Assembly (NCBI RefSeq): GCF_000230975.2
Contig: NC_021172.1
Coordinates: forward strand, 1,178,001 to 1,242,000
Direction of reading: 5' to 3'
DNA from: Hyphomicrobium denitrificans 1NES1
GTDB lineage: Bacteria > Pseudomonadota > Alphaproteobacteria > Rhizobiales > Hyphomicrobiaceae
DNA length: 64,000 nucleotides
The notes beneath the pieces are model-generated. The model searched no databases and was not told the DNA's origin. It worked only from the letters and a program-made list of their open reading frames with translations. Positions 24,409-41,724 of the stretch are shown here, piece after piece; the first letter of the stretch is position 1; each line of letters starts with the position of its first letter. A program made the position numbers and the translations under genes.

Positions 24409-24424
24409 TGTTCCTGTCGGAACA
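24409..24424. promoter_or_regulatory. Palindromic operator candidate TGTTCC-N4-GGAACA (site 1)
   Basis: TGTTCC-TGTC-GGAACA, both half-sites perfect. Its near edge is 97 bases upstream of the start codon of the Thr-rich exported protein gene (minus strand). The flank on the gene side, GGAACAGCGCCG, is identical to that of the site at 26161. No CGTT element follows at EcfG spacing. Confidence 0.7.
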
Positions 24425-24476
24425 TGAGCTCAGGCGTTTCGAAGTTTTAATTTTGTTATTTATATCAATGACTTGT

Positions 24477-25331
24477 TTAAGCTGCCGAGATTTTACCGAG
24501 GGCCGTGCGCTGCCCAGGTGCTTCCACCCGAACACCGATGAGGTTGGCGACGAAGCGGTCGATGGCGTCGACGACGAGGTGGCGCTGCCGGTCGACGGTG
24601 ACGACATGGTAGCAATCATCCAGAACCTCGAGATTGACAGGACCTCCAAGGCTGTCGCGGAGATAGGTTGCGTTGCTCATCGCGGCGTAGTCGTCTTCGA
24701 GTGGATGCACGATCAGGGTCGGCTGGCGGACAAAGGCGACGAGCTTCCGGACCGCATTCACCATCTGCCTGTGTTCGAACACGGCACCGCCGGGAGTCGC
24801 AGGATTGCCGGCCTCAGCGCTGCTGCGAGAGGCTCGCGCCCTCCGGATAAAATCCCGAATCCGCTCGTCCTTGATGCCGTGCGGATCGTGGTGTGGAAAG
24901 CTGAAAAGGTTCGCGAACCACTTGAAGCGGACGAGCCGGAATAGCCGCGCGTACCAGGGGATCATCCAGCCGTTGAGCCAGAGGGTCGGCGCAAGCAGTG
25001 CCGTTGCGTCGACTTTCGTCGGTTTCTTTGCGGCAAGCAGGATCGCGAGGACAGCACCCGCCGACAGCCCGCCTGCGATGACGACATCGCAGTCCTTCTT
25101 GAGATCATCGAGGGCCAGCTCGGCACTGCGATACCAGTCGGTCCAGGAGGAGGCTTTCAGCTCGTCCTCGCTGCCGCAGTGCCCGGCAAGAGTTGGGCAG
25201 TGGACGGTGTATCCCTGTTTGGCGAGGCCGCTCGCCACGAAGCGCATTTCGACCGGCGTTCCGCACAGCCGATGCAGCAGCAGGATGCCGACTTTTCCGC
25301 CTTTGATTTTGAAGCCTGCGTCTGTCGCCAT
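24477..25331 (-). CDS. Alpha/beta hydrolase (carboxylesterase/lipase-like)
   Basis: 284 residues, no signal peptide. The nucleophile elbow is GGLSAG. The Asp region is PTLIVHPLEDDYAAM and the catalytic His is in DDCYHVVTVD, giving a full triad of the monoacylglycerol-lipase/carboxylesterase type. The N-terminal HRLCGTPVEMRFVASGLAKQGYTVHCP segment is the usual oxyanion region. GAGAGGCG lies before ATG 25331. It is likely cytosolic and cleaves or transfers an acyl ester. Its place amid the exporter genes suggests it processes the exported molecule or its precursor, which is inference. Confidence 0.9.
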   Translation of the reverse strand: MATDAGFKIKGGKVGILLLHRLCGTPVEMRFVASGLAKQGYTVHCPTLAGHCGSEDELKASSWTDWYRSAELALDDLKKDCDVVIAGGLSAGAVLAILLAAKKPTKVDATALLAPTLWLNGWMIPWYARLFRLVRFKWFANLFSFPHHDPHGIKDERIRDFIRRARASRSSAEAGNPATPGGAVFEHRQMVNAVRKLVAFVRQPTLIVHPLEDDYAAMSNATYLRDSLGGPVNLEVLDDCYHVVTVDRQRHLVVDAIDRFVANLIGVRVEAPGQRTALGKISAA

Positions 25332-25419
25332 CAGTCGCCTCTCGGGTGCAATGTTTGTTCGATGATGCAAGGGTTAATCGCTCTGTCCGCTCACGGCAGT
25401 TCCGCTCGTGACACGGGTG

Positions 25420-25842
25420 TCATGCGGCTGTCTGTAATGGAGCCGCTGTCACGACTGGCTGACGTGATGGTTCGGTCGCAGCATCGATCGCGAGCAATAA
25501 TCGCTGGGCGTTGAATCCGAAGCGCGCATTGAGGCGTTGCTCTGAGGCTGCGGCGATTGCGGCCGCGATCACCTTGAAGCCGCGCTCGAGCAGCATGTCC
25601 TTGAGGCGGCGCGCCGCGAAAACGTCGATGAGCGCGCGAAACCGGAGGGCGACGGCAAGGCGTTCATCGACGTTGGTTTCAATGTCAGACCAAAGACTGC
25701 CCTCGAGCACGCGAAGCTCGCGTTCGCTCAGACCTTTGAGCAAGGCAAGCCCTTGGCCGTTTGCGATCAGCATCTGCATCGGACGATTAAGGGCAGACGT
25801 TGCGACTTGCGGGACGTCGGTCGGATCGAGTTTGGCTACCAT
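25420..25842 (-). CDS. Hypothetical soluble helical protein
   Basis: 140 residues, no signal peptide or membrane helix. Predicted mostly helical (LLKGLSERELRVLEGSLWSDIETNVDERLAVALRFRALIDVFAARRLKDMLLERGF) with an Ala-rich C-terminus. No family is recognised. The start lies 21 bases after the stop of the cold-shock-like gene, so these two are probably cotranscribed. Part of the exporter block. Confidence 0.65.
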   Translation of the reverse strand: MVAKLDPTDVPQVATSALNRPMQMLIANGQGLALLKGLSERELRVLEGSLWSDIETNVDERLAVALRFRALIDVFAARRLKDMLLERGFKVIAAAIAAASEQRLNARFGFNAQRLLLAIDAATEPSRQPVVTAAPLQTAA

Positions 25843-25863
25843 GGTGTGTCTGCCTGCGTTCGA

Positions 25864-26082
25864 TCAGAGAGCGACGCCGCCGAACGCCATCCATGGCGAT
25901 CCGGCGAGCACGATGATTTCGCGGACTTTCAAATCTCCCAGCTCGAAATGCACTTCCTGGCCTTCGAGGTCGTCGCGGCGATTGAGGATTTCCGTTCGCT
26001 TGAAACGGTAGGCACGCCCATCTTCGGCGGCGATGATTCCGACGCCTAGATCGCTGCGGAATTTCTTGATTTCTCCGTACAT
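25864..26082 (-). CDS. Small cold-shock-domain-like protein
   Basis: 72 residues. The pattern GEIKKFRSDLGVGIIAAEDGRAYRFKR...LEGQEVHFEL follows the beta-strand order of cold-shock domains (compare GxVKWFNxxKGxGFI...GxxVxFEV). The RNA-binding aromatic residues of strands 2 and 3 are mostly missing, so nucleic-acid binding is doubtful. AAGGAGAGATACG precedes the ATG, a strong ribosome site. First gene of a sub-operon that begins 79 bases after a palindromic operator candidate. Confidence 0.65.
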   Translation of the reverse strand: MYGEIKKFRSDLGVGIIAAEDGRAYRFKRTEILNRRDDLEGQEVHFELGDLKVREIIVLAGSPWMAFGGVAL

Positions 26083-26430
26083 CGTATCTCTCCTTGTGCG
26101 AGCGTTCGAGGACGCGTCTTCGTCCGTTGCTCATTCATGCGGAGAGTTTGACGACGGCGCTGTTCCTGCCGGGACAGGACTCGTATGCATACGGATCAAT
26201 TTGTAATTTTGGTTGCACAAAAGCAGCGCGATGCGCTGCGTTTGAAAACGCGACGGGGAGGGGCGGGAATGGGGCCGCATGCCCACGTCCGCGCTCCTCC
26301 CCGTACCCAGGACCGGCGGCAGCTCCGCTAAGGAGGACGCGCGCCGCCGCTGGCCTGTTCGGTTTCCGTCAGAGGTATTCTGCAAGCATGGTCTTGCCTC
26401 TCACCCCTGACGGTATTTCATGTTCCGTCA
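26083..26430. other. Intergenic region between fusion-protein gene and cold-shock-like gene
   Basis: 348 bases without a supported gene. It contains the second palindromic operator candidate (26161-26176), which together with the long gap indicates that the cold-shock-like gene has its own promoter. A G-rich stretch around 26250-26275 and a C-rich one near 26300 could pair, but no clear terminator is seen. Confidence 0.5.
26161..26176. promoter_or_regulatory. Palindromic operator candidate (site 2)
   Basis: TGTTCC-TGCC-GGGACA, one mismatch in the second half-site. Extended by a C/G pair on each side. It lies 79 bases before the start codon of the cold-shock-like gene. The gene-side flank GGAACAGCGCCG matches site 1. 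Confidence 0.6.
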
Positions 26431-27510
26431 TCACTTGAAAAAAGCATCGGCACGCATGCCGGGTAGCAACGGGGGATTGCCTTCAAGATCGATGGTCACT
26501 GGGAGCACTTCGACATCCACCGGACGGCGCGCGCCGCGCAGTGCGAACTGCGGAGAGGTCAGCGACGGCGCAAGTTCCGCGACCGTGCCTTCGAACTCCT
26601 TGCCCGGATAGGCGTTGCTCTTGACGACGACCTTGCCGCCGACCTTGATCTTCGAAACATCGATCTCATCGACCTCGGCTTTGAGGCGCACGACCGACAT
26701 GTCTCCGAGCACGGCGAGCGTCTGGTCTGGCGACGGCGCAACCATCTCACCGGCCTTTGCCGGAAGCTGCAAAACAGTGCCGCTGACGGGCGCCAGAATG
26801 CGCGTTTTCTCAAGCAGGGCTTCGGCAACTGCTACATCCGAGCGGGCAGCCTGAAGCGCGGACTCAAGACGATTAGGCGCCGGAATGTTCGGCTTCGATT
26901 GCGCCTTCGCATAGGCGGAACGCTCGTCCTGCAGCTTGTCCTTGGCCTTGGCAAGATCGTCACGGGCGCGGGAGACACGCGCGTCGCTGCCGTTGCCTGC
27001 CCGTCGGGCCTGAAGCTCGTATTCGAGTTCGAAATGCGCATTTGTCAGAGCCCGTTCGGCGGTAAAGACATTGTCCTCGGCCGCCCGGAGATCGTCGCGA
27101 GTCTTGTCGAGGGGCTGCGCGTCACGCTCGCGTTTGCGGGAAGCAACCTCGGTCTCTGCGGCCTGGAGACGGGCGCGGGCTTCATCATCGTCGAGGCGGA
27201 TCAGAAGCTCGCCTTCCTCGACTTTGTCGTTCTGCTTGACGGCGACTTCCGCGATGCGGCCGAGCAACGCCGATCCGACGCGAACGGTGCCGGACCTGGG
27301 TTCGATGCGACCGGGTGCTGCGGCCGCCCAATCAACTCTCGGCGTAACGTCCTCGGTCTTCAATGTGTCGTCGGCTTTTGAGGCGAGCAGATCGCTGTGG
27401 GTGAGGTTGACTGCTCCAAATGCTCCGGCTCCCGCCGCGACGAGTGCGAACAGCGAAAGCTTCAAGAAAATTCTGCGTTTCGGACGGCGATAGGTTTCGT
27501 CTGCGCTCAT
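26431..27510 (-). CDS. ABC exporter membrane-fusion protein (HlyD/DevB-like)
   Basis: About 359 residues. One N-terminal helix (FLKLSLFALVAAGAGAFGAV) anchors it in the inner membrane. The barrel-sandwich half-motif GRIEPRSGTVRVGSALLGRIAEVAVKQNDKVEEGELLIRLD is followed by a long coiled-coil hairpin (about residues 105-235, rich in Ala/Glu/Arg). The second half LEKTRILAPVSGTVLQLPAKAGEMV and a beta-barrel domain follow. AGGAGG lies before ATG 27510. It bridges the permease and ATPase pair 2.8 kb downstream to an outer-membrane channel, which is not encoded here. An operator candidate sits 62 bases upstream. Confidence 0.92.
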   Translation of the reverse strand: MSADETYRRPKRRIFLKLSLFALVAAGAGAFGAVNLTHSDLLASKADDTLKTEDVTPRVDWAAAAPGRIEPRSGTVRVGSALLGRIAEVAVKQNDKVEEGELLIRLDDDEARARLQAAETEVASRKRERDAQPLDKTRDDLRAAEDNVFTAERALTNAHFELEYELQARRAGNGSDARVSRARDDLAKAKDKLQDERSAYAKAQSKPNIPAPNRLESALQAARSDVAVAEALLEKTRILAPVSGTVLQLPAKAGEMVAPSPDQTLAVLGDMSVVRLKAEVDEIDVSKIKVGGKVVVKSNAYPGKEFEGTVAELAPSLTSPQFALRGARRPVDVEVLPVTIDLEGNPPLLPGMRADAFFK

Positions 27511-27571
27511 GACTTGATCCTCCTTAGGGATTTGCATGAGAACCGACGTACAGGTCTTGTCGCGGCGCCGC

Positions 27572-27587
27572 TGTTTCGAGCGGAACA
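27572..27587. promoter_or_regulatory. Palindromic operator candidate (site 3)
   Basis: TGTTTC-GAGC-GGAACA, one mismatch, extended to CTGTTTC...GGAACAG. It lies 62 bases before the fusion-protein start codon. Confidence 0.6.
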
Positions 27588-27635
27588 GGTTATGTGTTCT
27601 GCAAAAGAAGTTCCGCAGCGGGTAGAAAATAAGAA

Positions 27636-27666
27636 GGGCTCCGGGAATTGCCCGAAGCCCTTTTTC
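27636..27666. terminator. Probable intrinsic terminator, bidirectional
   Basis: GGGCTCCGGG and CCCGAAGCCC pair as a 10-bp stem with one mismatch and a 5-base loop, with TTTTTCT after it on the plus strand and TTCTTATTTTC after it on the minus strand. On the minus strand it ends the small exported protein gene, separating it from the fusion-protein gene. Confidence 0.75.
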
Positions 27667-27696
27667 TAAGCGTTAGTGGAACGCGATCGCCGAAAG

Positions 27697-27975
27697 TTAC
27701 TGACACATCTCGCGCAGTGTCCATCCGACGATCTTGCAGCTTTCAGTCCCGTTGGCGTTAAGGAAGCACTTGCGGTTCGGGAGGCGCTGATAATCGCAGT
27801 AATAGTTGCCCGAATGACCGGAATAGCCGTGCATCGGTTTTGCGAACTGATAATCCTGAATGAAAACTTCCTTGGCACCGCCGCGTGCGTAGGCGGCGGA
27901 ACCTGAAACGGCCAATGCGCTCGCGAGTGTCGCGACTGCTGCAAGGGCGGTGAAAGCTGTGTTGAACGATGCCAT
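27697..27975 (-). CDS. Small exported Cys/Tyr-containing protein, unknown
   Basis: 92 residues. Signal peptide ending near SGSAAYA. The mature peptide of about 62 residues has Tyr/Gly-rich GYSGHSGNYYCDYQRLPNRKCF and four Cys (YYC, RKC, SCK, EMC), likely two disulfides. No family is recognised. AAAGGAGGAATTT before the ATG is a strong ribosome site, and a terminator follows the gene. It has a perfect operator candidate 81 bases upstream, linking its expression to the exporter block. Confidence 0.75.
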   Translation of the reverse strand: MASFNTAFTALAAVATLASALAVSGSAAYARGGAKEVFIQDYQFAKPMHGYSGHSGNYYCDYQRLPNRKCFLNANGTESCKIVGWTLREMCQ

Positions 27976-28055
27976 TTTGAAATTCCTCCTTTTGGGCTGA
28001 AAGCCTCGATTTCATTTCCCGGAGGTAGCTTTAAGAGCTTCGGGCCAGGGGCGGC

Positions 28056-28071
28056 TGTTCCGGCCGGAACA
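28056..28071. promoter_or_regulatory. Palindromic operator candidate (site 4)
   Basis: TGTTCC-GGCC-GGAACA, a fully palindromic 16-mer. It is 81 bases before the start of the small exported protein gene (minus strand) and about 185 bases before the glutathione peroxidase start on the other strand. Confidence 0.7.
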
Positions 28072-28255
28072 CGGCGCGACGGGTGCCCCGACTAAGGCAC
28101 ACGGAAAATTATTCGCGGTATCGCTGCCGTGAGACTGCGGTCGCTGGGGCTTTCCAAATGATACAGCTTGCAGAGGTGATCGTTGGCGGCTTTGAGTGTA
28201 TCCTGCTTCGGCGCTGGTGCCTCTGCTCGCAAAAGATCTGAGGGGCGATTTAACG

Positions 28256-28840
28256 ATGGGAAAGCTCTGGTCGATGATTGTCAGCCTCGTCGCGATGTGG
28301 ACCGCGGCCTCGAGCGTTACGCCATCCAATCCTGTGACGGGTCTTGCCTACGATTTCGAGTTTACAGGCATCGACGGCAATTCGATGCCGCTGTCCGCTT
28401 TTCGCGGCAAGGTTCTGCTGATCGTCAACACGGCGTCGTTCTGCGGCTATACGAAACAATACGCAGGACTGCAGAAGCTATGGTCGCGCTACGAGAAGGC
28501 GGGCCTCGTCGTCATCGGCGTTCCTTCGAATGATTTCGGCGAGCAGGAGCCGAAGTCGGAGGGCGAGATCAAGACATTCTGCCAGGGCGCGTTCGGTGTG
28601 ACGTTTCCGCTGACGTCGAAACAGCACGTCGTCGGCGTGGATGCGCACCCCTTCTACAAATGGGCGGCGGGAGCTATGGGCCCGGCGGGCACGCCGAACT
28701 GGAATTTTCACAAGTATCTGGTGGACCGGGATGGCCGGCTGCTGTGGTCGTTCTCGACCAAGCTCCCGCCGGAGTCGGCAGAGATCACGGGCGCGATCGA
28801 GAAAGCCCTCGCTGGGCCGGCAGGCGTCGCGCAAAATTGA
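28256..28840 (+). CDS. Glutathione peroxidase family protein, probably periplasmic
   Basis: 194 residues. An N-terminal hydrophobic stretch (SMIVSLVAMWTAASSV) looks like a signal. The peroxidatic site is VNTASFCGYTKQYAGLQ with Cys (not Sec). GVPSNDFGEQEPKSEGEIKTFC and NWNFHKYLVDRDG follow, supplying the Trp and Asn of the catalytic tetrad. The usual catalytic Gln of SNQFG is Asp here (SNDFG), a variant I associate with an alphaproteobacterial subgroup. It likely uses thioredoxin-type donors to reduce peroxides. ATG 28256 chosen, with GAGGGG 7-12 bases upstream. Confidence 0.9.
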   Translation: MGKLWSMIVSLVAMWTAASSVTPSNPVTGLAYDFEFTGIDGNSMPLSAFRGKVLLIVNTASFCGYTKQYAGLQKLWSRYEKAGLVVIGVPSNDFGEQEPKSEGEIKTFCQGAFGVTFPLTSKQHVVGVDAHPFYKWAAGAMGPAGTPNWNFHKYLVDRDGRLLWSFSTKLPPESAEITGAIEKALAGPAGVAQN

Positions 28841-28861
28841 GCGGGCTCGCTGCGCTATTTT

Positions 28862-30495: not shown

Positions 30496-30610
30496 GCGCG
30501 GCGCCTTCCGGGCACCGCCTGAGCTTTGTAGACGAGACGGTGTCTCCCTAGATAATTGTCGATCGACGAGGTTTGGCGCGAAAGGCCGGCCTCCAATCAG
30601 GAAACGGACG

Positions 30611-31975
30611 ATGCAGGTCACTGAAACAGCGAGAGACGGACTGAAGCGCACCCTGCAGGTGGTGGTGGGGAAGGCCGAGCTGGGCGAGCGCTTCTCGGAA
30701 CGGCTCGATGAGCTCAAGGACCGCGTGCAGATCAAAGGATTTCGGCGCGGCAAGGTGCCGTTGGCGCACCTGAAGAAGCTCTACGGCAAGTCGCTGATGC
30801 AGGAAGTTCTGGAGCAGACCATCAACGATACGAGCGCGAAGGCCGTCAAAGATCGAAACGAACGCCCGGCACAGCAGCCGAAATTGGAACTCCTCGGCAT
30901 CGACGACGGTGGTATCGAGCGCGTTGTCAATGGCGAAACGGACCTCTCCTACAAGATGGACTTCGAGGTTCTTCCCCCCATCCCGCTGGCTGATCTCGGG
31001 ATACTGAGGCTCGAGCAGCTCGTTGCGGATGTCGATGACGCAGCCATCGACAAGGCATTGGCTGATCTCGCTGAGCGCAATACATCTTACGAGCCGGAAG
31101 AGGGTCGGGTTGCAGGCGAGGGCGATCTCGTGACGATGAATTTTGCCGGGCGCATCGATGGCGAGGCGTTCGAAGGCGGCTCGGCCGAGGGCGCGAGCCT
31201 GGTCATCGGCAAGAAGCAGTTCATTCCGGGCTTCGAGGAAGGCGTCGTCGGCATGAAGGCCGGTGACCAGAAGATCGTCACGGCGACGTTCCCCGAAGAC
31301 TATCCGATGAAGAATCTCGCAGGGAAAGCCGCCGAGTTCGACGTCTCGGTCACCGCCGTCGCGAAGCCGAAGAAGCCGGACATCGATGAAGATTTCGCGA
31401 AGGGCCTCGGAGCCGAGGACCTAAAGACGCTGCGCGGCTTCGTCACCGACCAGATCAAGCGCGAATACAGTCAGGCGTCGCGGGTGAAGTTGAAACGCGA
31501 GATTCTGGATGCGCTCGATAAAGCTCATACGTTCGAGCTGCCGGCGTCCCTTGTCGAATTCGAATTCAACAATATATGGACACAGCTCGAGAGCAATCTC
31601 AAAGCCGCCAACAAGACGATCGCCGATGAAGGCAAATCCGAGGAGGAGCTGCGCGCAGAATACCGAGGCATCGCCGAGCGCCGGGTTCGTCTCGGGTTGG
31701 TGATCGGCGAGATCGGCGAGAAGAACAAGTTGCAGGTTTCCCAGGACGAGTTGCGCCGCGCGCTGGTCGAGCAGGCGCGCCGCTATCCAGGCCGGGAGAA
31801 GCAGGTCTACGAATTTTACGAGAAGACGCCCGGTGCCCTCAACGAGCTGCGCGCACCGATCTTCGAGGACAAGGTGATCGACTACGTGATCGCCGAGGCA
31901 AAGCCGATCGAAAAGAAGGTGTCGAGAGACGAGCTTTTGAAGGCGGTTGAAGAAGCGACTGGGGCTGAAGCTTGA
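30611..31975 (+). CDS. tig: Trigger factor
   Basis: 454 residues. The N-terminal ribosome-binding domain contains the GFRRGKVPLAHLKKLYG signature. The FKBP-like peptidyl-prolyl isomerase domain follows (about residues 155-245: GDLVTMNFAGRIDGEAFEGGSAEGASLVIG, FIPGFEEGVVGMKAGD). A long helical chaperone domain ends the protein. It binds nascent chains at the ribosome exit tunnel. Placed before clpP and clpX, the classical proteostasis order. Confidence 0.97.
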   Translation: MQVTETARDGLKRTLQVVVGKAELGERFSERLDELKDRVQIKGFRRGKVPLAHLKKLYGKSLMQEVLEQTINDTSAKAVKDRNERPAQQPKLELLGIDDGGIERVVNGETDLSYKMDFEVLPPIPLADLGILRLEQLVADVDDAAIDKALADLAERNTSYEPEEGRVAGEGDLVTMNFAGRIDGEAFEGGSAEGASLVIGKKQFIPGFEEGVVGMKAGDQKIVTATFPEDYPMKNLAGKAAEFDVSVTAVAKPKKPDIDEDFAKGLGAEDLKTLRGFVTDQIKREYSQASRVKLKREILDALDKAHTFELPASLVEFEFNNIWTQLESNLKAANKTIADEGKSEEELRAEYRGIAERRVRLGLVIGEIGEKNKLQVSQDELRRALVEQARRYPGREKQVYEFYEKTPGALNELRAPIFEDKVIDYVIAEAKPIEKKVSRDELLKAVEEATGAEA

Positions 31976-32093
31976 GTTGCGGTTGCCCAGGGGCCGTTTT
32001 CCGGCGCTCGGGCCTTGTGCCACACAAAGCGTGCGAATCTGACCGGTTAGCTCTATCAGTGCCTACCGGCTGAAATCAGGAAAGACCAAGGCG

Positions 32094-32747
<654 letters not shown>

Positions 32748-33082
32748 GTGGTAGCGGCAAAGCAAACGCTAGTGGAAACGCGCCCTTCGTGTCGGCGCAT
32801 TGTCGCGGTAGAACAAAGGCCGTACACCGGGTCAACGTTTACGTGAATTTTTAGGGTGAATCGCGATGTTGCCACATCGTTCACCAACTGTGGCAATACC
32901 GCCGCTTGCGAGGCATGGCCGGGTGCGGTCCATTAATCCATTCTTGATCTGCCGAACGCTAGCGTGAGAGATTGAATCCCGTGATTTTACGTCGCCGCAG
33001 ATCGGCAATTGCCGGGACGTGAACAACGGGCCAAAGCAAGAACATCGGGGCGCCGACGCTCTTGCATCGAAAGTGAGAAAAC
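32748..33082. other. clpP-clpX intergenic region
   Basis: 335 bases without a protein gene. It should hold the clpX promoter and perhaps the clpP terminator. An 8-bp perfect inverted repeat (32869-32896) is the only notable structure. I see no convincing RpoH-type promoter. Confidence 0.5.
32869..32896. promoter_or_regulatory. Inverted repeat TTGCCACA-N12-TGTGGCAA upstream of clpX
   Basis: TTGCCACA at 32869-32876 and its exact complement at 32889-32896, 12 bases apart. Lacking a T-run, it is more like an operator or an mRNA structure than a terminator. It is about 187 bases before the clpX start. Confidence 0.5.
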
Positions 33083-34330
33083 ATGGCTCAAGAGAAAAAC
33101 ACTCTCTACTGCTCTTTCTGCGGCAAGAGCCAGCATGAGGTACGCAAGCTTATTGCCGGACCGACTGTGTTCATCTGCGATGAATGCGTCGAGCTGTGCA
33201 TGGACATCATCCGTGAGGAGAACAAGAACACTCTCGTCAAATCGCGTGACGGGGTGCCGACTCCGCAGGAAATCTGCAACGTCCTCGACAGCTACGTGAT
33301 CGGTCAGTTCCACGCCAAGCGCGTTCTGTCGGTCGCCGTTCACAACCACTACAAGCGACTCAATCACGCGACGAAGAACAACGACGTCGAACTCGCGAAG
33401 TCGAATATCCTACTCGTCGGTCCGACGGGCTCGGGCAAGACGCTGCTGGCGCAAACGCTTGCACGCATCCTCGACGTGCCCTTCACGATGGCTGATGCAA
33501 CTACGCTTACCGAAGCGGGCTATGTCGGCGAGGATGTCGAGAACATCATCCTGAAGCTTCTGCAGGCTGCCGACTACAACGTCGAGCGGGCGCAGCGCGG
33601 CATCGTCTATATCGATGAAGTCGACAAGATCAGCCGCAAGTCGGACAATCCGTCGATTACACGCGACGTGTCGGGCGAAGGCGTGCAGCAGGCGCTGTTG
33701 AAGATCATGGAAGGGACCGTTGCCTCGGTGCCGCCGCAGGGCGGTCGCAAACACCCGCAGCAGGAGTTCCTGCAGGTCGATACGACGAACATCCTGTTCA
33801 TCTGCGGTGGTGCGTTTGCGGGCCTCGAAAAGATCATCTCGCGGCGTGGCAAGGGATCGTCGATCGGCTTCTCGGCGAAGGTCACAGGCCCGGACGAGCG
33901 GCGCACCGGTGACATTCTGCGCGGCGTCGAGCCTGAGGATCTCCTGAAGTTCGGCCTCATTCCGGAATTCATTGGTCGTCTGCCCGTTATCGCAACGCTT
34001 GAAGATCTCGACGAGGCGGCTCTCGTCCAGATCCTGACCGAGCCGAAGAATGCGATCGTCAAGCAGTATCAGCGCCTCTTTGAAATGGAGGATGTGAAGC
34101 TGACGATTACGCTCGACGCTCTGAAAGCGATCTCGCGCAAGGCCATCGAGCGCAAAACCGGAGCGCGCGGTCTGCGGTCGATCATGGAAGGCATCCTGCT
34201 CGATACGATGTACGACTTGCCGACGCTCAAGGGTGTCGAGGAGGTCGTCATCGGCCCTGAGGTGGTCGAGGGTTCGGCGAAGCCGCTTCGGATCTATTCG
34301 GACAGAGCCGAGGAGAAAGGCTCCGCGTAG
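33083..34330 (+). CDS. clpX: ATP-dependent Clp protease ATP-binding subunit ClpX
   Basis: 415 residues. The N-terminal zinc-binding domain has Cys10, Cys13, Cys32 and Cys35 (YCSFCGKSQ...FICDEC). AAA+ motifs: Walker [11 protein letters not shown], pore-loop GYVGEDVE, Walker B YIDEVDKI, and the arginine-sensor region [12 protein letters not shown]. It unfolds tagged substrates and feeds them into ClpP. Full length, no oddities. Confidence 0.98.
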
Positions 34331-34371
34331 TTGTCGCGACAATTAAGGCTTGTCGGGGCGCATCCCCGGCA

Positions 34372-34399
34372 CTTGTTTGGGGGACCATGGTCCCCATTT
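34372..34399 (+). promoter_or_regulatory. RpoH (sigma-32)-like heat-shock promoter for lon
   Basis: CTTGTTT (34372-34378), a 13-base spacer, then CCCCATTT (34392-34399) closely match the sigma-32 consensus CTTGAAA-N13..15-CCCCAT. The spacer and -10 overlap a perfect palindrome GGGGACCATGGTCCCC (34380-34395), and a TTGTCGCGACAA palindrome lies at 34331-34342. Lon is a classical RpoH target. About 210 bases separate it from the lon start. Confidence 0.7.
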
Positions 34400-34609
34400 G
34401 TTCGGAGGGTTAGTGGCATCAAGAGCCAGCCGGGGCACTTCCTCCGCAACCGGCATTTTAGCACTTGGGTCTCACCCCGCGCTCGCGCTTCACGAGAATG
34501 CTGACCGTCGCCACAAAAAGGGACGGGATGCGTGGCTCCTAAGTGGAACGGGCGTGGATCGTGCTGGTAGCCTCGAAAAAGAGGCCGGCGTACGGCGATA
34601 GGTAGTCAA

Positions 34610-37036
34610 ATGAGCGAAGATAAAAGGACCAGGGAAAAGGCTGTCGGCAAAGAACTGTTTCCGGTTCTGCCGCTGCGGGACATTGTCGTTTTCCCGTACA
34701 TGGTCGTGCCGCTTTTCGTCGGCCGCGAAAAATCCATCGCGGCTCTGGAAGAGGTCATGCGCGCCGACAAGCAGATCCTGCTTGCCGCGCAGAAGAACGC
34801 TGGCGACGACGATCCGTCCCCCGACGCGATCTACGAAATCGGAACGCTGGCGTCCGTGCTGCAGCTTCTGAAGCTTCCCGACGGAACCGTGAAGGTTCTG
34901 GTCGAAGGAAACACGCGCGCCAAGATCATCCGCTATACGGCGAATACTAGCTACTTCGAAGCTGAAGTCGAACGCGTGGCCGAGGTCCCTGGCGCCAAGG
35001 ACGAGCTCGAAGCGCTGGCGCGCTCGGTCGTGACGCAGTTCGAAAGCTACGTGAAGCTTAACAAGAAGGTCTCGCCCGAGGTTCTGAGCAACGTCGGGCA
35101 GATCGAGGATTATGCGAAGCTCGCCGACACGATCGCGTCGCATCTTGCGGTGAAGATTTCGGATAAGCAGGACGTCCTCGAGACCGCGAGCATCTCGGAG
35201 CGACTTGAGCGCGTTTATACGCTGATGGAAAGCGAGATCTCGGTCCTGCAGGTCGAGCGCAAGATCCGTTCACGCGTGAAGCGCCAGATGGAGAAAACGC
35301 AGCGCGAGTACTATCTGAATGAGCAGATGAAGGCCATTCAGAAGGAACTCGGCGACTCGGACGAGCGCGACGATATCTCGGAGTTCGAAGAGAAGATCGA
35401 GAATACGAAGCTGTCGAAGGAAGCCAAGGACAAGGCGCTGGCTGAGCTCAAGAAGCTCAAGCAGATGTCGCCGATGTCGGCTGAAGCGACGGTCGTGCGC
35501 AACTATCTCGACTGGCTCTTGTCGATCCCGTGGGGGATCAAGGGCAAGGTCAAGAAGGACATTGCCGAAGCGCAGACGATCCTCGACCAAGAGCACTATG
35601 GCCTCGAGAAGGTCAAGGAGCGCATCCTCGAGTATCTCGCCGTGCAGGCGCGCACCAACAAACTGAAAGGGCCGATCCTGTGCCTCGTCGGGCCTCCGGG
35701 CGTCGGCAAGACGTCGCTCGGCAAATCGATCGCGAACGCCACGGGACGCGAATTCGTTCGCATGTCGCTCGGCGGCGTGCGCGACGAAGCGGAGATCCGC
35801 GGTCATCGCCGGACCTATATCGGCTCGATGCCGGGCAAGGTCATTCAGTCGATGAAGAAGGCGAAGCGGACGAACCCGCTTTTTCTCTTGGACGAGATCG
35901 ACAAGATGGGCCAGGACTTCCGCGGCGATCCGGCAGCGGCGCTGCTCGAAGTCTTGGACCCGGAGCAGAATGCGACGTTCAACGATCATTACCTCGAGGT
36001 CGACTACGATCTTTCGAACGTGATGTTCGTGACGACGGCGAACACGCTCAATATCCCGCCCGCCTTGATGGACCGCATGGAGATCATTCGCCTTGCGGGC
36101 TACACGGAGGACGAGAAGCTTGAGATCGCGAAACGCCATCTGATCCCCGAGCAGGTGACGGCGCACGGCCTGGAGCCGGACGAGTGGACGGTCGAGAACG
36201 GCGCTCTCAAGGAAGTTATTCGCCGATACACGCGCGAAGCGGGCGTCCGTTCGCTCGAACGCGAGATTGCAAAGCTCGCGCGCAAGGCGGTGAAGGAAAT
36301 CCTGACGTCGTCAAAATCGTCGATCGTCGTCACGGCGGAGAACGTCCATGATTTCCTCGGTGTGCCGAAGTATCGCTACGGCGAAGCCGAACTCGAGGAT
36401 CAGGTTGGTATCGTTACGGGTCTTGCCTGGACTGAGGTCGGCGGCGAGCTGCTGACGGTCGAAGGCGTCATGATGCCCGGGAAGGGCCGCATGACGGTGA
36501 CGGGCAACCTGCGCGATGTGATGAAGGAGTCGATCCAGGCTGCGAACGCTTACGTGCGCTCGCACTCGGTCGATTTCGGAATTCACCCGTCGCTGTTCGA
36601 GAAGCGCGACATCCACGTGCACGTGCCGGAAGGCGCGACGCCGAAGGATGGGCCTTCCGCCGGCATCGCCATGACGACGGCCATCATCTCCGTGCTCACC
36701 GGAATTCCCGTTCGGAAGGATGTGGCAATGACGGGCGAGATCACGTTGCGCGGCCGGGTGCTGCCGATCGGCGGTCTCAAGGAGAAGCTCCTTGCAGCGC
36801 TGCGCGGCGGCATCAAAACGGTCATCATCCCGGAAGAGAACGCCAAGGATCTGGCGGAGATTCCGAACGAGGTGCAGACCAAGATGGACATCATTCCGGT
36901 TTCAAAACTGGAAGAGGTTCTGAAGATTGCGCTCATCAGGATGCCGGAGTCGATCACTTGGGATGAAGTCGCGGAGGCGGAAGCTCTCGAGGCGAAAGAC
37001 GCGGATAAAACAGGATCGCGCATCACGGCGCATTGA
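34610..37036 (+). CDS. lon: ATP-dependent protease La
   Basis: 808 residues. Order: N-terminal substrate-recognition LON domain ([23 protein letters not shown]), helical linker, AAA+ module with Walker [14 protein letters not shown] and Walker [11 protein letters not shown]. The C-terminal serine protease has the Ser-Lys dyad: Ser in [11 protein letters not shown] and Lys in [12 protein letters not shown]. It degrades misfolded and regulatory proteins. Own promoter with RpoH features upstream; strong terminator downstream. Confidence 0.98.
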
Positions 37037-37070
37037 GTTCTTGCCGGATGCGATGTTGGACTTGGTTATC

Positions 37071-37102
37071 GCCCCTGTGCGGCAAACGCGCAGGGGCCTT
37101 TA
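37071..37102 (+). terminator. Intrinsic terminator of lon
   Basis: GCCCCTGTGCG and CGCGCAGGGGC form an 11-bp stem (one G-U) with loop GCAAA, followed by CTTTAATTAT. It starts 35 bases after the lon stop. Confidence 0.85.
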
Positions 37103-37161
37103 ATTATGTTAACCGCGAGCATTTTGATGCGCTTTTGTCCGGAAATACGGGCGTTTTCCGC

Positions 37162-37190
37162 TTGACGGACGTAGGGATTGGGCGCTTCTA
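37162..37190 (+). promoter_or_regulatory. Housekeeping-type promoter for hup
   Basis: cTTGACG (-35, 37162-37167), 17-base spacer, CTTCTA (-10, 37185-37190). The CTTGAC hexamer is the alphaproteobacterial sigma-70 consensus; the -10 is a moderate match. It is about 95 bases before the HU start. Confidence 0.55.
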
Positions 37191-37284
37191 CCGGGCCATG
37201 CACGGTCGATAACTCCCCCATGGCGGCCGTCCCGGGCTTTCAGCCCGATGCAAACTCAATCTCCGACACTAGAGGACTTATGAG

Positions 37285-37557
37285 ATGAGCAAGAAAGATT
37301 TAATCGATGCCGTCGCGAGAGACTGCGAGCTGACCAAAGAAAAAGCCAGCGGCGTCGTCGATGCTGTACTCGCGCATATTCGCGAGGCCATGAAGGAAGG
37401 CCATGAAGTGCGTATTCCAGATTTCGGCACGTTCAAAGTCGCTGCCCGCAAGGCGCGCGAGGGTCGTAACCCGGCGACCGGCATGACGATCCAGATCCCT
37501 GCGTCGCGCGTGCCAAAGTTCACGCCCGCGAAGGGTTTGAAAGACGCTTTGAACTAA
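37285..37557 (+). CDS. hup: DNA-binding protein HU
   Basis: 90 residues, the standard HU length. N-terminal MSKKDLIDAVARDCELTKEKASGVVDAVL, then the family core FGTFKVAARKAREGRNPATGMTIQIPASRVPKFTPAKGLKDALN with the DNA-bending RNPATG arm (the Pro at its tip is the intercalating residue). It compacts the nucleoid and supports many DNA transactions. hup after lon is the conserved order in proteobacteria. Own promoter and terminator. Confidence 0.97.
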   Translation: MSKKDLIDAVARDCELTKEKASGVVDAVLAHIREAMKEGHEVRIPDFGTFKVAARKAREGRNPATGMTIQIPASRVPKFTPAKGLKDALN

Positions 37558-37579
37558 AGCGTCCACCGTCGGAATTTTG

Positions 37580-37608
37580 AGGCGTGCCGCCATGTGGCGC
37601 GCCTTTTT
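37580..37608 (+). terminator. Intrinsic terminator of hup
   Basis: GGCGTGCC and GGCGCGCC pair as an 8-bp stem (one G-U, plus an A-T at the base) around a 7-base loop, followed by TTTTT. It begins 23 bases after the HU stop. Confidence 0.88.
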
Positions 37609-37659
37609 GTTCGTGAGCAAGCGGACGTACAGGCCCAACGGGCGAGAGCCGACGAGGCG

Positions 37660-38057
37660 TCAGCGCTGGGGTGTCGAACGTTCCGATGTCGTCTGCGCCT
37701 TCGGCGTAATCCTGAAGTTCGCCGAGACGCGGATGTTTATGCCGTCAGATTGCTGTGCGTAGGCGCGTTGAGGCTGGCTCGATACGTTGACGCTACTGAG
37801 GCTGCAGGTCTCGGCAATCGTCGCCGGCAGTTCGCGCACTCCCGTCCAGCCATGTCGTAGGCTTGTCGGCGGCCGCGCTCCGAGGCGTTCTGGGCGGCGT
37901 CCGTTCCGCCGTCTGCCGGCAGGGTGAACGTATAATTGACCGATACGGTCACTGTCTGATTGCGCTTGTTATCGACACCATACGGGTCCGTATGGGCATT
38001 GACGAAAAGCAACGCAAGCATTGCTGCCGCACCAGATCCAATTTTGCCAGTTGCCAT
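37660..38057 (-). pseudogene. Frameshifted exported-protein gene
   Basis: From ATG 38057 the frame gives an N-terminal hydrophobic signal (GSGAAAMLALLFVNA) and NQTVTVSVNYTFTLP, then RRQAYDMAGRECA. After this it turns Arg/Pro/Ser-rich and runs to a stop near 37737. In the +1 frame from about 37833 the sequence ELPATIAETCSLSSVNVSSQ continues sensibly, including a GINIRVSANFRITPK strand mirroring the N-terminal one, and ends at 37660. Restoring one G near 37833-37838 (GCGGAAC for GCGAAC) joins both halves into a protein of about 131 residues. Either a real mutation or a sequencing error; function unknown. Confidence 0.7.
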
Positions 38058-38100
38058 TGTGGATGCCTTCTTCGTCAGGTCGAGGTCAGAATAGCAAAGC

Positions 38101-38120
38101 CGGAACTTACGTATGTTCCG
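38101..38120. promoter_or_regulatory. Near-perfect palindrome upstream of the frameshifted gene
   Basis: CGGAAC-N8-GTTCCG with ACGT at the centre; 18 of 20 positions are symmetric. It is 43 bases before the start codon at 38057. It shares GGAAC/GTTCC arms with the TGTTCC-N4-GGAACA sites but in the opposite order and with different spacing, so it is not counted as one of them. Confidence 0.4.
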
Positions 38121-38274
38121 TTTGTCGGGTAATTTCGCGTTGGCGGTTAATCAGAAGGAAATGGCGCTCGCGTTAGCGCTGCAGGCTATACGTCGCGGGC
38201 TCAATCGCCGATGACATGTGCGAGACCATCTTGCGGGTCTGACTGTTGCTGCATAGAAGATCACTTGTGGTGTT

Positions 38275-38349
38275 GGGCGGTTAGCTCAGTGGTAGAGCGC
38301 CTCGTTTACACCGAGGATGTCGGGAGTTCGACCCTCTCACCGCCCACCA
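38275..38349 (+). tRNA. tRNA-Val (anticodon UAC)
   Basis: 75 bases with encoded CCA. Acceptor GGGCGGT/ACCGCCC; anticodon stem CCTCG...CGAGG around TTTACAC gives UAC (Val). GTTCGAC T-loop present. Confidence 0.97.
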
Positions 38350-38439
38350 TTTCTGCTGGTTCTTGAGACTCCGCTTCGCGGAGCTGGCCGCAAGGACGGC
38401 CCTGTTGAATCACCTGTGTTCGCCGGAGGAAGCGCCGTC

Positions 38440-38943
38440 ATGGCCGTCTCGATGTACGCCATCGCCATTCCGACCTTTCAGAAGCAGCTCGCTTCGCTGG
38501 AAGCCATTCTCGACAAGGCTGCCGAGTACGCGGCGGCGAAGAAGATCGATTTCGCGGTTCTGCTCGCGGCTCGGCTCTATCCGGATATGTTCAATCTGAC
38601 TCGGCAAGTGCAGTTGGCGACGGACTTCGCAAAGGCCGCGCCGGCGCGGTTGGCGGGACTCGACGTTCCGAGTTTCCCTGATACGGAGACGACGTTACCG
38701 GAATTGAAGGAGCGCTTGGCCAGAACCCAGGCGCTGCTTGCGAGCTACAAGCCCGAACAGCTCAACGGCTCCGAGGCGAAGCAGCTGACGTTGAAGCTCG
38801 GCGGTCAGGAGGTCACCCTCACGGGACAGGACTACCTGCTGCACGTTGCGCTTCCCAACTTCTATTTCCATTGCGCCACGGCTTATGGAATCCTGCGGCA
38901 TAACGGCCTTGAGATCGGCAAGCGCGATTTCGTCCGCAGATAG
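38440..38943 (+). CDS. DUF1993 domain protein
   Basis: 167 residues, soluble and helical. It begins MAVSMYAIAIPTFQKQLASLEAILDKAAEYAAAKKID and continues AARLYPDMFNLTRQVQLATDFAK; the C-terminus has LPNFYFHCATAYGILRHNGLEIGKRDFV. These are the hallmarks of DUF1993, a family related to DinB-like four-helix bundles; the late F-H-x-x-T-A-Y-x-I-L-R-H holds the His residues. No activity is established for the family. CGGAGGA lies before ATG 38440. It sits between tRNA-Val and tRNA-Asp. Confidence 0.9.
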   Translation: MAVSMYAIAIPTFQKQLASLEAILDKAAEYAAAKKIDFAVLLAARLYPDMFNLTRQVQLATDFAKAAPARLAGLDVPSFPDTETTLPELKERLARTQALLASYKPEQLNGSEAKQLTLKLGGQEVTLTGQDYLLHVALPNFYFHCATAYGILRHNGLEIGKRDFVRR

Positions 38944-39062
38944 ATGCCGCCTGGCTGGCGATTGTCGCCCGCTGCCGCGAACAGCGGCTTGACGCCCGCG
39001 CGGGCATCACGTATTCGGACGCTGTGACGACGGGCGCTTCGGCGCCCGTGGCTTTCTGGATT

Positions 39063-39139
39063 GCGGGAGTAGCTCAGTTGGTTAGAGCGCCGCCCTGTCA
39101 CGGCGGAGGCCGCGGGTTCAAGTCCCGTCTCTCGCGCCA
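39063..39139 (+). tRNA. tRNA-Asp (anticodon GUC)
   Basis: 77 bases with encoded CCA. Acceptor GCGGGAG pairs with CTCTCGC (one G-U). Anticodon stem CCGCC...GGCGG around CTGTCAC gives GUC (Asp). GGTTCAAGTCC T-loop present. Confidence 0.97.
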
Positions 39140-39283
39140 CACCATCAGCGGCTGAGCGAATTATGTCGCTCGCAGACGATGCTGCCGGATTTTCCTCTCA
39201 AGGTTTCAGGCACCGGCGCCGAGGTTTCCGCGATCCATAGCGTGGGTTTTCTCGCCACGTCAGTCTAGGGACCGCGCTTTATC

Positions 39284-41146
39284 TCACTCAAGTTTGGACC
39301 GGCAGACCTCAAGCGCCTTGCCCACGTCCGCAGCCGGAACCGGCTTGCTGAAATAAAATCCCTGGAGCTCGTTGCAGCCGGCAGCGGTGACCGTTTGGGC
39401 CTGATCGAGCGTCTCGATGCCCTCTGCGACTGTACTGATTTGCATTTGCTTACCGAGGCCGGCGACAGCCTGTATGATCGCCTCGCAGTCTTTTCGCTTT
39501 CCGATATCGAGATCGCGGACGAAGCTGCGATCGATTTTAATTTTGTCGAAGGGGAAGCTGCGCAGATAGCTCAGCGACGCATAGGCTGTCCCGAAGTCGT
39601 CAAGAGCGATGCGAACGCCTAGAGCACGCAGGTTGTGCAAAATTGCGCGTGTATTGATTTCGTCGCGTAGAAGCACGCCTTCAGTGATTTCCAACTCAAG
39701 CCGATGCGGCGCAAGTCCTGACAGCGTCAGCGCATTGACGACGGCTTGGTAGAGGTTGCCCCTTTCGAACTGGATCGGAGACAGATTAACCGACACTCTG
39801 ATCGTATCGGGCCAACAGGTCGCCTCTTCGCAGGCACGGCGCAATGCCCACTCGCCGATTTCCACGATCAGCCCGGTTTCTTCGGCGATCGGGACAAAGT
39901 CGACCGGCGGGATTAAGCCCCGAACCGGATGGTGCCATCGCAACAGCGCTTCGAAGGCAATGACTTCTCGGTGGCCCGTGTCGACGAGAGGTTGATAATG
40001 AAGGTCCAGTTGATGTTGATCGAGGGCGCCTCGCAAGTCGATCTGCAGCTCGTAGCGGGAATTTACGTCATCTGCGATATCGGGATCGTACAGGAATGCA
40101 TTTCCCTTGCCGTTTGCTTTCGCTTTGTAGAGTGCGAGATCGGCTGCCTTGAGAAGTTGTTCCGCCGTTTGACCATGAAGGGGTGCAAACGCAATTCCAA
40201 TACTTGCGCTGCAAGAAACTTGCTGCCCGCCGAGATTATGAGGCTTGCAGATTTCCTTGAGCAGGCGCTGGGCCATGCGTTCGGCATCGGCCTTCTTGGC
40301 AACACGGGAGGAGGCCTGCAAAACCGCAAATTCGTCTCCCCCAAGCCGGGCCACGATATCATTTTTTCGTACGGCGCGCTGAAGGCTCCTGGCAACGCTC
40401 TTCAGAAGTGCGTCGCCCACAGGATGTCCAAGGGTATCGTTGACGGACTTGAATCCATCCAAATCGATCCAGTGCAGCGTCAGTCCATGATTAGGACCTA
40501 AATTTTTCAGCGCATCATCGAGAGCTTCGTGGAATTGCAGGCGATTGGCAATTTCGGTCAGCGGATCGTGACGCGCCAGCCAATGAATTTTCTGCTCGGC
40601 CTGGCGGCGTTCAGTGATGTCTTCTTGAATATCCACCCAGCCGCCGCCTTCGAGCGGCCGATTGGTGACGAGGACGACGCGGCCGCTTTTGAGGTGCTGC
40701 GTGTGCGAAAAAGTCTCGCCGCGAGCAAGTGCGGCTATATGCTGGTTTATCCACGCCCGCTGCTTTTTGCGTTCCTTAGGGTTATCCAGTCCTGTTTCCC
40801 GTTTGACGTGATTGCGCACCAACTCGGCAAGGGACGTCCCGGGTCGGGTCAAGTGCTCGGGAAGCTCATAGATTTCTTCATACGTCTTGTTGCAAACGAT
40901 CAGGCGTTGATTGGCGTCGAACATCGACAAACCGCGCGCCATGTTATTGAGCGCAAGCTCCAGGCAGCGATTAAGCTGGCTTAGCTGTTCGCCGTTGCCT
41001 TGTTTTATGGGCTGCAAAGGAGGTTTAGACGATGCCCGGGCGCGATTAGCTTTGGATCGCTCTTTCTGAATCCGCCGATCTGTCGATTTTCCAGATCGCG
41101 AAACGTTCGGACGTTGTTTTGCGCTCTTCTTGGCGTTTGCAACCAT
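39284..41146 (-). CDS. PAS-GGDEF-EAL cyclic-di-GMP signalling protein
   Basis: 620 residues, no membrane helices. A basic N-terminus (about 45 residues) is followed by a PAS-like sensor (residues about 60-180: LALNNMARGLSMFDANQRLIVCNKTYEEIYELP, ending DITERRQAEQ). The GGDEF domain has RLGGDEFAVLQ intact. The EAL domain has EALLRWHHP, ALDDFGTAYASLSYLRSFPFDKIKID and AEGIET, all expected catalytic positions. It may both make and degrade c-di-GMP. Single gene with a long upstream region. The PAS ligand is unknown. Confidence 0.95.
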   Translation of the reverse strand: MVANAKKSAKQRPNVSRSGKSTDRRIQKERSKANRARASSKPPLQPIKQGNGEQLSQLNRCLELALNNMARGLSMFDANQRLIVCNKTYEEIYELPEHLTRPGTSLAELVRNHVKRETGLDNPKERKKQRAWINQHIAALARGETFSHTQHLKSGRVVLVTNRPLEGGGWVDIQEDITERRQAEQKIHWLARHDPLTEIANRLQFHEALDDALKNLGPNHGLTLHWIDLDGFKSVNDTLGHPVGDALLKSVARSLQRAVRKNDIVARLGGDEFAVLQASSRVAKKADAERMAQRLLKEICKPHNLGGQQVSCSASIGIAFAPLHGQTAEQLLKAADLALYKAKANGKGNAFLYDPDIADDVNSRYELQIDLRGALDQHQLDLHYQPLVDTGHREVIAFEALLRWHHPVRGLIPPVDFVPIAEETGLIVEIGEWALRRACEEATCWPDTIRVSVNLSPIQFERGNLYQAVVNALTLSGLAPHRLELEITEGVLLRDEINTRAILHNLRALGVRIALDDFGTAYASLSYLRSFPFDKIKIDRSFVRDLDIGKRKDCEAIIQAVAGLGKQMQISTVAEGIETLDQAQTVTAAGCNELQGFYFSKPVPAADVGKALEVCRSKLE

Positions 41147-41724
41147 TTTTTATTTTCCACTCGCACTAAAGTTGGTGGTCTCTGATAATGCGCAATCTGT
41201 AAGCTAGTGATTAAAAATGCAGGGTTTTTTGTAATTTCTTTTCAACTTTAAAGGGTATTTCAATTTTTATTGCGTCGCAAAATAACGAAATGGACCAATA
41301 CCAATTACAGAGATACGGAGAGAATCGAGTTTCGAAGCTCGGCGAAGCGAGACCTTCTTCAGGTCAAAATTTCAAAAGTGCTGCTTTGGCGTTTCAGGGT
41401 CGCGACAAGCGCTTTCGCCGCGGCATGGTCATTTCGCGAATCTGGGCGGTGGCTTCCGCTATCTTCCGGCTCCGATGAACATGGACCTTTAGAAGCGCAT
41501 TAGAATATTCACGCCACTATATCGCAATTCTGCCGAACATTGTGCGCCGCAGCAGATACGGCCGACGCTCCAGGTGTCGGGCGCTCGCAATCTTCGGAAG
41601 TGTTCCCGAGGGAACAATCTTTTTTCTGTAAATCTGTTGTCATGGCCGCACGAACGTCAGTGTGCTACTTTTTTTCTGGCTCCTGATCTTCGAAGTTCGA
41701 TTTCGTATCATCAGAGGCGTTGCG
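41147..41724. other. Divergent intergenic region between the GGDEF-EAL and FecR-domain genes
   Basis: 578 bases, noticeably AT-richer (long A and T runs at 41200-41270) than the surroundings. It must carry the promoters of both divergent genes and holds a perfect operator candidate at 41601-41616. Short open frames here have no ribosome sites and are not reported as genes. Confidence 0.6.
41601..41616. promoter_or_regulatory. Palindromic operator candidate (site 5)
   Basis: TGTTCC-CGAG-GGAACA, both half-sites perfect, 109 bases before the FecR-domain start codon and 13 kb away from the other four copies. A T-run follows it. Confidence 0.65.

Follow-up and report, generated by a model that had tools for sequence, protein, structure and literature searches.

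A TGTTCC-N4-GGAACA palindrome in Hyphomicrobium denitrificans is a predicted Clr box before an ABC exporter block and a FecR gene

The palindrome TGTTCC-N4-GGAACA precedes genes of an ABC exporter block and a FecR-domain gene in a 64,000-nucleotide stretch of the Hyphomicrobium denitrificans 1NES1 genome (hereafter the window), and our comparative analysis across the genus and family points to this palindrome as a site for the CRP-family regulator Clr. We assign a probability of roughly 0.88 to the reading in which the palindrome is a Clr site and Clr bound to cAMP likely switches on the exporter block together with the FecR gene. That Clr binds and activates, and with which ligand, is predicted here from sequence comparison.

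Results

A pattern scan of the window recovered all five TGTTCC-N4-GGAACA sites that a prior sequence-only reading of this DNA had reported, each in its reported place and with the same mismatches, and the distances from site to start codon were borne out at 61-108 bases by the starts used here (62-109 in that reading). The weak match that it had placed at 25398-25413 is likewise present (AGTTCCGCTCGTGACA) and fits the published Clr core, and for a 64-kb stretch its estimate of ~0.004 exact matches holds under equal-frequency arithmetic. Its description of the regulon as undescribed finds no support in kind; the palindrome corresponds to the Clr box already published, and the excerpts of PMC5498481 and PMC10127613 give the binding consensus of Sinorhizobium meliloti Clr as HGTYHCNNNNGRWACA, with the core GTNNCNNNNGNNAC. 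All five named sites match this consensus on at least one strand, and the site before the hydrolase gene matches the core. S. meliloti Clr is a CRP-family activator that is itself activated by a cyclic nucleotide; among the papers listed in an open-licence library, none was seen that describes this Hyphomicrobium regulon.

The exporter block lies on the minus strand. Predicted Clr box 1 (TGTTCCGGCCGGAACA, 28056..28071) is an exact palindrome that precedes the gene for a 92-aa small protein (27697..27975), which is predicted to be exported on the basis of its hydrophobic N-terminus and has no Pfam or NCBIfam match; the predicted -10 position, TTAAAG (28029..28034), lies 21 nt past the box, giving a predicted transcription start near 28022. 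With one mismatch to the palindrome, predicted box 2 (27572..27587) precedes the gene for the HlyD/DevB-type membrane fusion protein of an ABC exporter (26431..27510; Pfam HlyD_D23 and HlyD_3, NCBIfam DevB below cut-off), the predicted -10 hexamer being TACGTC (27545..27550) and the predicted start near 27538. Predicted box 3 (26161..26176), also with one mismatch, is followed by the predicted hexamer CATGAA (26134..26139; genus consensus GCATNNT), a predicted start near 26127 and the gene for a 72-aa protein (25864..26082) without a family match, for which we retain the earlier label of cold-shock-like. Beyond the next gene, which encodes a 140-aa protein (25420..25842) that also lacks a family match, the weak predicted box 4 (TGTCACGAGCGGAACT, 25398..25413) precedes an alpha/beta hydrolase gene (24477..25331; Pfam Hydrolase_4 and Abhydrolase_6), with TAACCC (25371..25376) as predicted hexamer and a predicted start near 25364. 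Predicted box 5 (TGTTCCGACAGGAACA, 24409..24424), again exact, is paired with the predicted hexamer CAATCT (24382..24387; genus consensus GCATTCT) and a predicted start near 24375, and precedes genes for a Thr-rich protein with a hydrophobic N-terminus and no family match (23698..24312), a DevC-like exporter permease (22382..23701; MacB_PCD and FtsX, devC model below cut-off) and a DevA/LolD-like exporter ATPase (21626..22366; model scores below cut-off). For the 140-aa protein, permease and ATPase genes, the 180 upstream bases contain no site at two or fewer mismatches. An HlyD/DevB-type fusion protein, an FtsX/MacB-type permease and a DevA/LolD-like ATPase are the parts of DevBCA/MacAB-type exporters, from which this block differs in that its Dev model scores fall under the NCBI cut-offs (228.1 bits against 295.8 for DevA, 85.2 against 129 for DevB and 141.6 against 290.35 for DevC) and in that separate predicted promoters that carry Clr boxes would serve its genes.

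Four exact sites occur in the 3.81-Mb source genome, three of them in the window, compared to none for the reversed control pattern. At up to two mismatches the window holds five matches against a shuffle mean of 1.74, a modest excess that 2 of 100 shuffles reach, and genome-wide totals were 15 versus 14 for the control at up to one mismatch and 27 strand-matches versus 20 for the relaxed published consensus and its control. By our own gene calls, all four exact and five of the 11 one-mismatch places are intergenic, the remaining six lying inside genes. One intergenic place, at 2028498, has no clear gene downstream. Given that the one-mismatch and relaxed-consensus counts in this genome are close to control, we rejected a single-genome scan as proof; loose matches within one genome prove little and the case therefore rests on comparative evidence.

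We examined a genus set of 22 genomes, taking counts over the orthologues found of each gene. The four exporter-block genes keep the published consensus in 78 of 79 upstream sites, with a varying central N4 that takes 11-14 different forms per gene. A consensus site precedes the small exported protein gene in 22/22 genomes (12 different centres), the HlyD-type gene in 21 of 22 orthologues (the one in G021 has no site), the cold-shock-like gene in 17/17 and the Thr-rich gene in 18/18, where it is exact in 16. The half-sites are nearly fixed across the genus while the upstream flanks and centre vary. Upstream of the hydrolase gene, a core match is present in all six genomes in which this gene was found beside the exporter, the source genome included.

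The position of the sites relative to a -10-like element is conserved as well. At all four exporter-block promoters, [T/C]A stands exactly 21 nt past the site in 95-100% of orthologues. For the box 1 promoter, the first two -10 bases are T in 22/22 and A in 95% of orthologues; the source genome reads TT, and its TTAAAG, like its TGTCAT before the FecR gene, fits poorly. On this conserved element, the centre of the site would lie at -41.5, which is the class II position for CRP-family proteins. Of the repressor or activator that had been proposed from the sequence alone, this predicted geometry favours the activator. At other predicted targets, seven of 49 oriented sites have [T/C]ANNNT starting at the 21-nt offset versus 0-3 at each other one, and the predicted class II geometry, which is clear for the exporter block, is therefore only partial outside it. 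Class II CRP-dependent promoters of the E. coli CAP type share the 16-bp palindrome, the predicted centre near -41.5 and the adjoining -10 region; they differ in half-site, which is of the TGTGA type for CAP and TGTTCC here, and the distances given here are predicted ones.

On the plus strand, the exact predicted box 6 (TGTTCCCGAGGGAACA, 41601..41616) precedes the gene for a FecR-domain protein with a likely signal peptide, from which its start was placed (41725..42738; Pfam FecR), and TGTCAT (41638..41643) is the candidate, weak -10 position. Convergent to this gene, on the minus strand, is a CHASE2 adenylate cyclase gene (42743..45031; Pfam CHASE2 and Guanylate_cyc). The core is kept upstream of 13 of the 15 FecR orthologues in the genus, source included, with the full consensus in 10 and no core in two, and TA is found 21-22 nt past the site in 10 of 15 as counted from aligned rows, the source genome not being among them. 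FecR and the CHASE2 cyclase are present or absent jointly in 22/22 genomes. The arrangement of a Clr-boxed FecR gene next to a CHASE2 cyclase, found in the window and the genus, recurs in part in rhizobial loci: 12 of 14 Rhizobiaceae-type loci have a CHASE2 cyclase after clr and a consensus site ~3.3 kb past the clr start, and a FecR homologue was detected between them in five of those 12. A Campylobacterota cluster described in the excerpt of PMC9239204 also pairs a FecR-domain gene with a neighbouring CHASE2 adenylate cyclase; it differs in containing a phosphodiesterase and a TPR protein, and a Clr box goes unmentioned in that excerpt.

A Clr orthologue is encoded at genome position 2906548-2907264, next to a gene for an adenylate cyclase. 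It shares 42% identity with S. meliloti Clr, whose structure 7PZA is its best PDB match (E 2.7e-50; next best 2.6e-29). The regulator gene is distant from the sites, clr lying ~1.7 Mb away in the source genome. The Clr base contacts Q184, S194, R195, K197 and N199, as given in the excerpt of PMC10127613, are conserved in 22/22 genus orthologues, as are G85, E86, R95 and S96 of the pocket for the cyclic nucleotide phosphate and sugar; a further published base contact, L152, aligns with Ile in the Clr of the source genome. At the nucleobase contacts T140/T141, associated with the dual cAMP/cGMP response, all 22 genus orthologues have Ala-Asp, and Thr-Thr is kept in 14/14 Rhizobiaceae-type loci (L209-L222). 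This pocket change appears from the alignments to be new and clade-specific, and because of it the ligand of Hyphomicrobium Clr is less certain. The clr gene is adjacent to a cyclase gene on the same strand in 22/22 genus genomes, and the only two PF00211 cyclases found in the source genome are this one and the CHASE2 protein. Autoregulation of clr in the source genome was considered and rejected, there being no consensus match near the gene. Among the Hyphomicrobium-like clr loci (L232-L243), some of them incomplete, 10 of 12 have no consensus site; L239 has one ~4.7 kb from clr and L243 has one just past the matched part of clr.

The sites also track the regulator across the family. Of 90 family genomes, clr was found in 78 and not found in 12, and perfect sites averaged 4.05 per genome with clr versus 0.58 without (Mann-Whitney p 4e-6, shared ancestry ignored), compared to 0.58 and 0.67, respectively, for the reversed control; in total, 323 perfect sites were counted versus 53 for the control. 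Seven genomes have clr yet zero perfect sites (G024, G026, G033, G052, G056, G090 and G091), and sites occur without a detected Clr in G066 (3), G081 (2), G041 (1) and G068 (1). Of 61 family genomes, six have the exporter within ~5 kb of clr, and a site near the exporter was seen in only 13 of the 20 family exporter loci examined. The proposal that the exporter block shares one regulator with the FecR gene is well supported, both by the conservation of the sites and by this association of site number with clr presence.

These data also bear on other explanations of the palindrome. It is very unlikely that a CRP/FNR-family regulator other than Clr reads it: the source genome does have eight HTH_Crp_2 matches above cut-off, but among the seven proteins L016-L022 the SRPKVN recognition helix of Clr is found only in L021, and site number follows clr. 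L018, the only one besides L021 that was compared to PDB sequences, was rejected as the regulator given that its pocket lacks the Arg and that its best matches are 3i54 and 3d0s, which we take to be M. tuberculosis Rv3676, with Clr merely eighth. A perfect palindrome by itself suits many repressors, and the sites could in principle be operators of an unrelated TetR/GntR-type regulator that resemble the Clr box by coincidence; such a coincidence is highly improbable given that the sites fit a published consensus of 16 bp, keep a fixed 21-nt spacing to a -10-like element and are tied to clr.

GGAAC is in addition the -35 element of ECF/EcfG promoters, and FecR domains occur in ECF systems, such that the GGAACA halves might be read as ECF sigma-factor -35 elements. 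ECF promoters have a GTT-type -10, however, whereas here [T/C]ANNNT is found at 21 nt and the left half is conserved as well as the right, for which reasons we rejected this explanation and regard its chances as slim in the extreme. The least credible option is that the palindrome spread by chance or as a mobile repeat, which would suit the lack of clear enrichment of loose matches in the source genome alone but not the near-fixed half-sites amid varying sequence in the genus, nor the excess of perfect sites over control in the 90 genomes.

Discussion

Under the Clr reading, signals from the envelope or membrane would prompt the two cyclases to make cAMP, and Clr-cAMP would bind the palindrome, centred near -41.5, and act in class II fashion to recruit RNA polymerase. 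Expression would then rise for the DevBCA/MacAB-type exporter, for the small exported proteins that accompany it and for FecR, which may in turn feed back on the adjoining CHASE2 sensor. We hold more tentatively, and at less than even odds, the fuller picture that in Hyphomicrobium and close relatives a re-tuned Clr, with Ala-Asp in place of Thr-Thr, responds to a single cyclic nucleotide to drive envelope export, with the exporter parts behind their own class II promoters and FecR-CHASE2 as the feedback sensor.

The predicted regulon shares with that of S. meliloti (Clr, CyaD1, SMc02177 FecR and SMc02178) the consensus, an orthologous regulator in which five DNA contacts are conserved, a Clr-boxed FecR gene in the vicinity of a CHASE2 adenylate cyclase and many small-protein targets. 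Unlike in S. meliloti, clr in Hyphomicrobium sits not beside the FecR/CHASE2 pair but beside another cyclase gene, the ABC exporter block is a main predicted target, the nucleobase contacts are Ala-Asp rather than Thr-Thr, and two class III cyclases were found in the genome versus 28. What appears to be new is the exporter block as a predicted Clr target, the sixth putative site before the hydrolase gene and the further predicted targets.

Studies of Clr have used a plant symbiont, in which it is known to control infection. Among the goals for later work stated in PMC10127613 is how specific cluster G regulators are in the nucleotides they recognize, a question that the natural exchange of Thr-Thr for Ala-Asp opens to direct testing. 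The source genome, in which one Clr and two class III cyclases were found, would be a much simpler experimental system than S. meliloti, which has 28 cyclases. That a genus outside the symbionts has the Clr box, a conserved exporter target and a cyclase gene next to clr suggests that the role of Clr in envelope export is the older one and that symbiosis would be one use of it. If cAMP does switch on the exporter and FecR genes together, the cAMP signalling system studied in plant symbionts would extend to their non-symbiotic relatives.

Results

All five palindromes (TGTTCC-N4-GGAACA) reported by the sequence-only reading lie where it had placed them, at 24409, 26161, 27572 and 28056 in the exporter block and at 41601 before the FecR gene. 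Each matches, on at least one strand, the binding consensus HGTYHCNNNNGRWACA (core GTNNCNNNNGNNAC) given for Clr, a cyclic-nucleotide-activated CRP-family activator of Sinorhizobium meliloti for which crystal structures on DNA have been published (PMC5498481, PMC10127613). Judged by its bases, the window palindrome is the published Clr box. The weaker match before the hydrolase gene (25398-25413), which had been singled out as well, fits the Clr core, and a core match lies upstream of this gene in all six genomes in which it was found beside the exporter. The proposal that such sites exceed chance held for exact sites, of which the 3.81-Mb single-contig genome has four, three inside the window (1178001-1242000), but not for loose matches, which were not clearly enriched in this genome alone, and we therefore tested conservation across genomes.

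The expected recurrence of the motif in relatives was borne out, with 102 perfect sites versus 17 for the reversed pattern among 22 genus genomes, all of which carry both clr and the exporter HlyD gene. When the exporter region was fetched from the other 21 genomes and set beside this one, a consensus site was found before the small exported protein gene in 22/22 orthologues and upstream of the HlyD (21/22), cold-shock-like (17/17) and Thr-rich (18/18) genes, the last two genes not being found in the fetched stretch of the remaining five and four genomes, respectively. Across these four promoters, half-site columns are 59-100% conserved (mostly 100%), the site centre 33-94% and the ten bases upstream mostly 32-73%; each promoter shows 11 to 14 versions of the central tetramer among its orthologues. 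For the 140-aa, permease and ATPase genes, the upstream 180 bases hold no site at up to two mismatches. All 22 genus genomes also encode a second relative of HlyD (42-47% identity), here at G000:C1:3098680-3099624.

At each of the four exporter promoters, 95-100% of orthologues read [T/C]A at bases 22-23, numbered from the site end, and 71-100% have T at base 27. Taking this conserved hexamer as the -10 element would place the palindrome centre at -41.5, where CRP sits at class II promoters; most Clr-activated S. meliloti promoters have distances between -42 and -76 (PMC10127613). In this genome the hexamer at the expected place is poor for the sites before the small exported protein (28056) and FecR genes.

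FecR has an orthologue with at least 63% identity in 15/22 genus genomes, and a sixteenth has a weaker FecR alone (37%). Matches to the CHASE2 cyclase (window 42743-45031) are found in the same 16 genomes and absent from the same six, two of which are less than 85% complete. The Clr core upstream of FecR is kept in 13/15 orthologues and the full consensus in 10/15; for five weaker FecR relatives the nearest upstream match is no closer than three mismatches. Of the 14 Rhizobiaceae-type loci retrieved through their Clr (L209-L222), 12 have a CHASE2 cyclase after clr. The same 12 carry a consensus site some 3.3 kb beyond the clr start, and in five of these a FecR homologue sharing 23-28% identity with the window FecR was detected between the cyclase and that site. 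In the window, genes read from sequence as trigger factor, ClpP, ClpX and Lon stand in a row (30611-37036) between the exporter block and FecR.

A profile search for HTH_Crp_2 returned eight matches above cut-off in this genome. The Clr orthologue (L021) has S. meliloti Clr as by far its best match among solved proteins, and contigs titled Hyphomicrobium encode Clr proteins up to 85% identical to it (L233). All 22 genus orthologues retain the published base contacts Q184, S194, R195, K197 and N199 as well as an identical phosphate pocket; a further published contact, residue L152, aligns with Ile in L021. The T140/T141 pair, which in S. meliloti Clr touches the nucleobase of the ligand (PMC10127613), is Thr-Thr in all 14 Rhizobiaceae-type loci, whereas it is replaced by Ala-Asp in 22/22 genus orthologues, and a dual response to cAMP and cGMP, as in S. 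meliloti Clr, is therefore not to be assumed here. Five alphaproteobacterial loci (L223-L227), of which four are from Gemmobacter, Cypionkella or Pseudorhodobacter, carry an exact palindrome upstream of clr itself, 120-168 bases from the matched part of the gene, which suggests that clr is autoregulated there.

A membrane-type cyclase gene starts 38 bases after clr on the same strand, and this adjacency and orientation recur in 22/22 genus genomes (with only part of the cyclase gene covered by locus L120). It and the CHASE2 cyclase are the two PF00211 cyclases found in this genome. Both have the Lys typical of adenylate cyclases, and at its partner position the clr-adjacent enzyme has Asp and the CHASE2 enzyme Ser.

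Across 90 family genomes, with clr scored as present at E below 1e-50 (next weaker best match, 7e-23), the perfect-site count follows clr presence, with exceptions: genomes with clr (n=78) average 4.05 perfect sites and those without (n=12) 0.58, versus 0.58 and 0.67 for the reversed control. The exporter HlyD (cut-off E 1e-95) occurs in 61 of the 90, and in six of these (G023, G027, G040, G043, G044 and G067) its distance to clr is at most about 5 kb. Among 20 exporter loci fetched from the 41 HlyD-bearing genomes outside the genus, sites accompany the exporter or companion genes in 13, in differing gene order, and seven have no site. One family genome has two perfect palindromes with six bases between them (G028:C8:16855-16892). 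Perfect sites are unusually many in G049 (13) and G080 (11), which possibly have larger regulons.

We also read 60 further site neighbourhoods (52 of the sites listed for G001-G016 and eight in this genome), naming targets from their sequences without a family search; in five the site falls inside a predicted gene. Genes that recur downstream of these sites include a short-chain dehydrogenase (5 genomes), an MFS transporter (4), a lytic transglycosylase (4) and ribA-like (8), DUF3307-like (7) and DUF2147-like (4) genes. Further predicted Clr targets of this genome that are also represented elsewhere in the genus are the ribA-like (G000:C1:1812443, L202), DUF2147-like (G000:C1:2177996, L204) and DUF3307-like (G000:C1:1768122, L205) genes and one for a 67-aa small protein (G000:C1:2726385, L206).

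Discussion

We infer binding and activation, as well as the ligand, the signal and the exporter cargo. The best reading is that Clr bound to a cyclic nucleotide, in Hyphomicrobium most likely cAMP, would activate its target genes.
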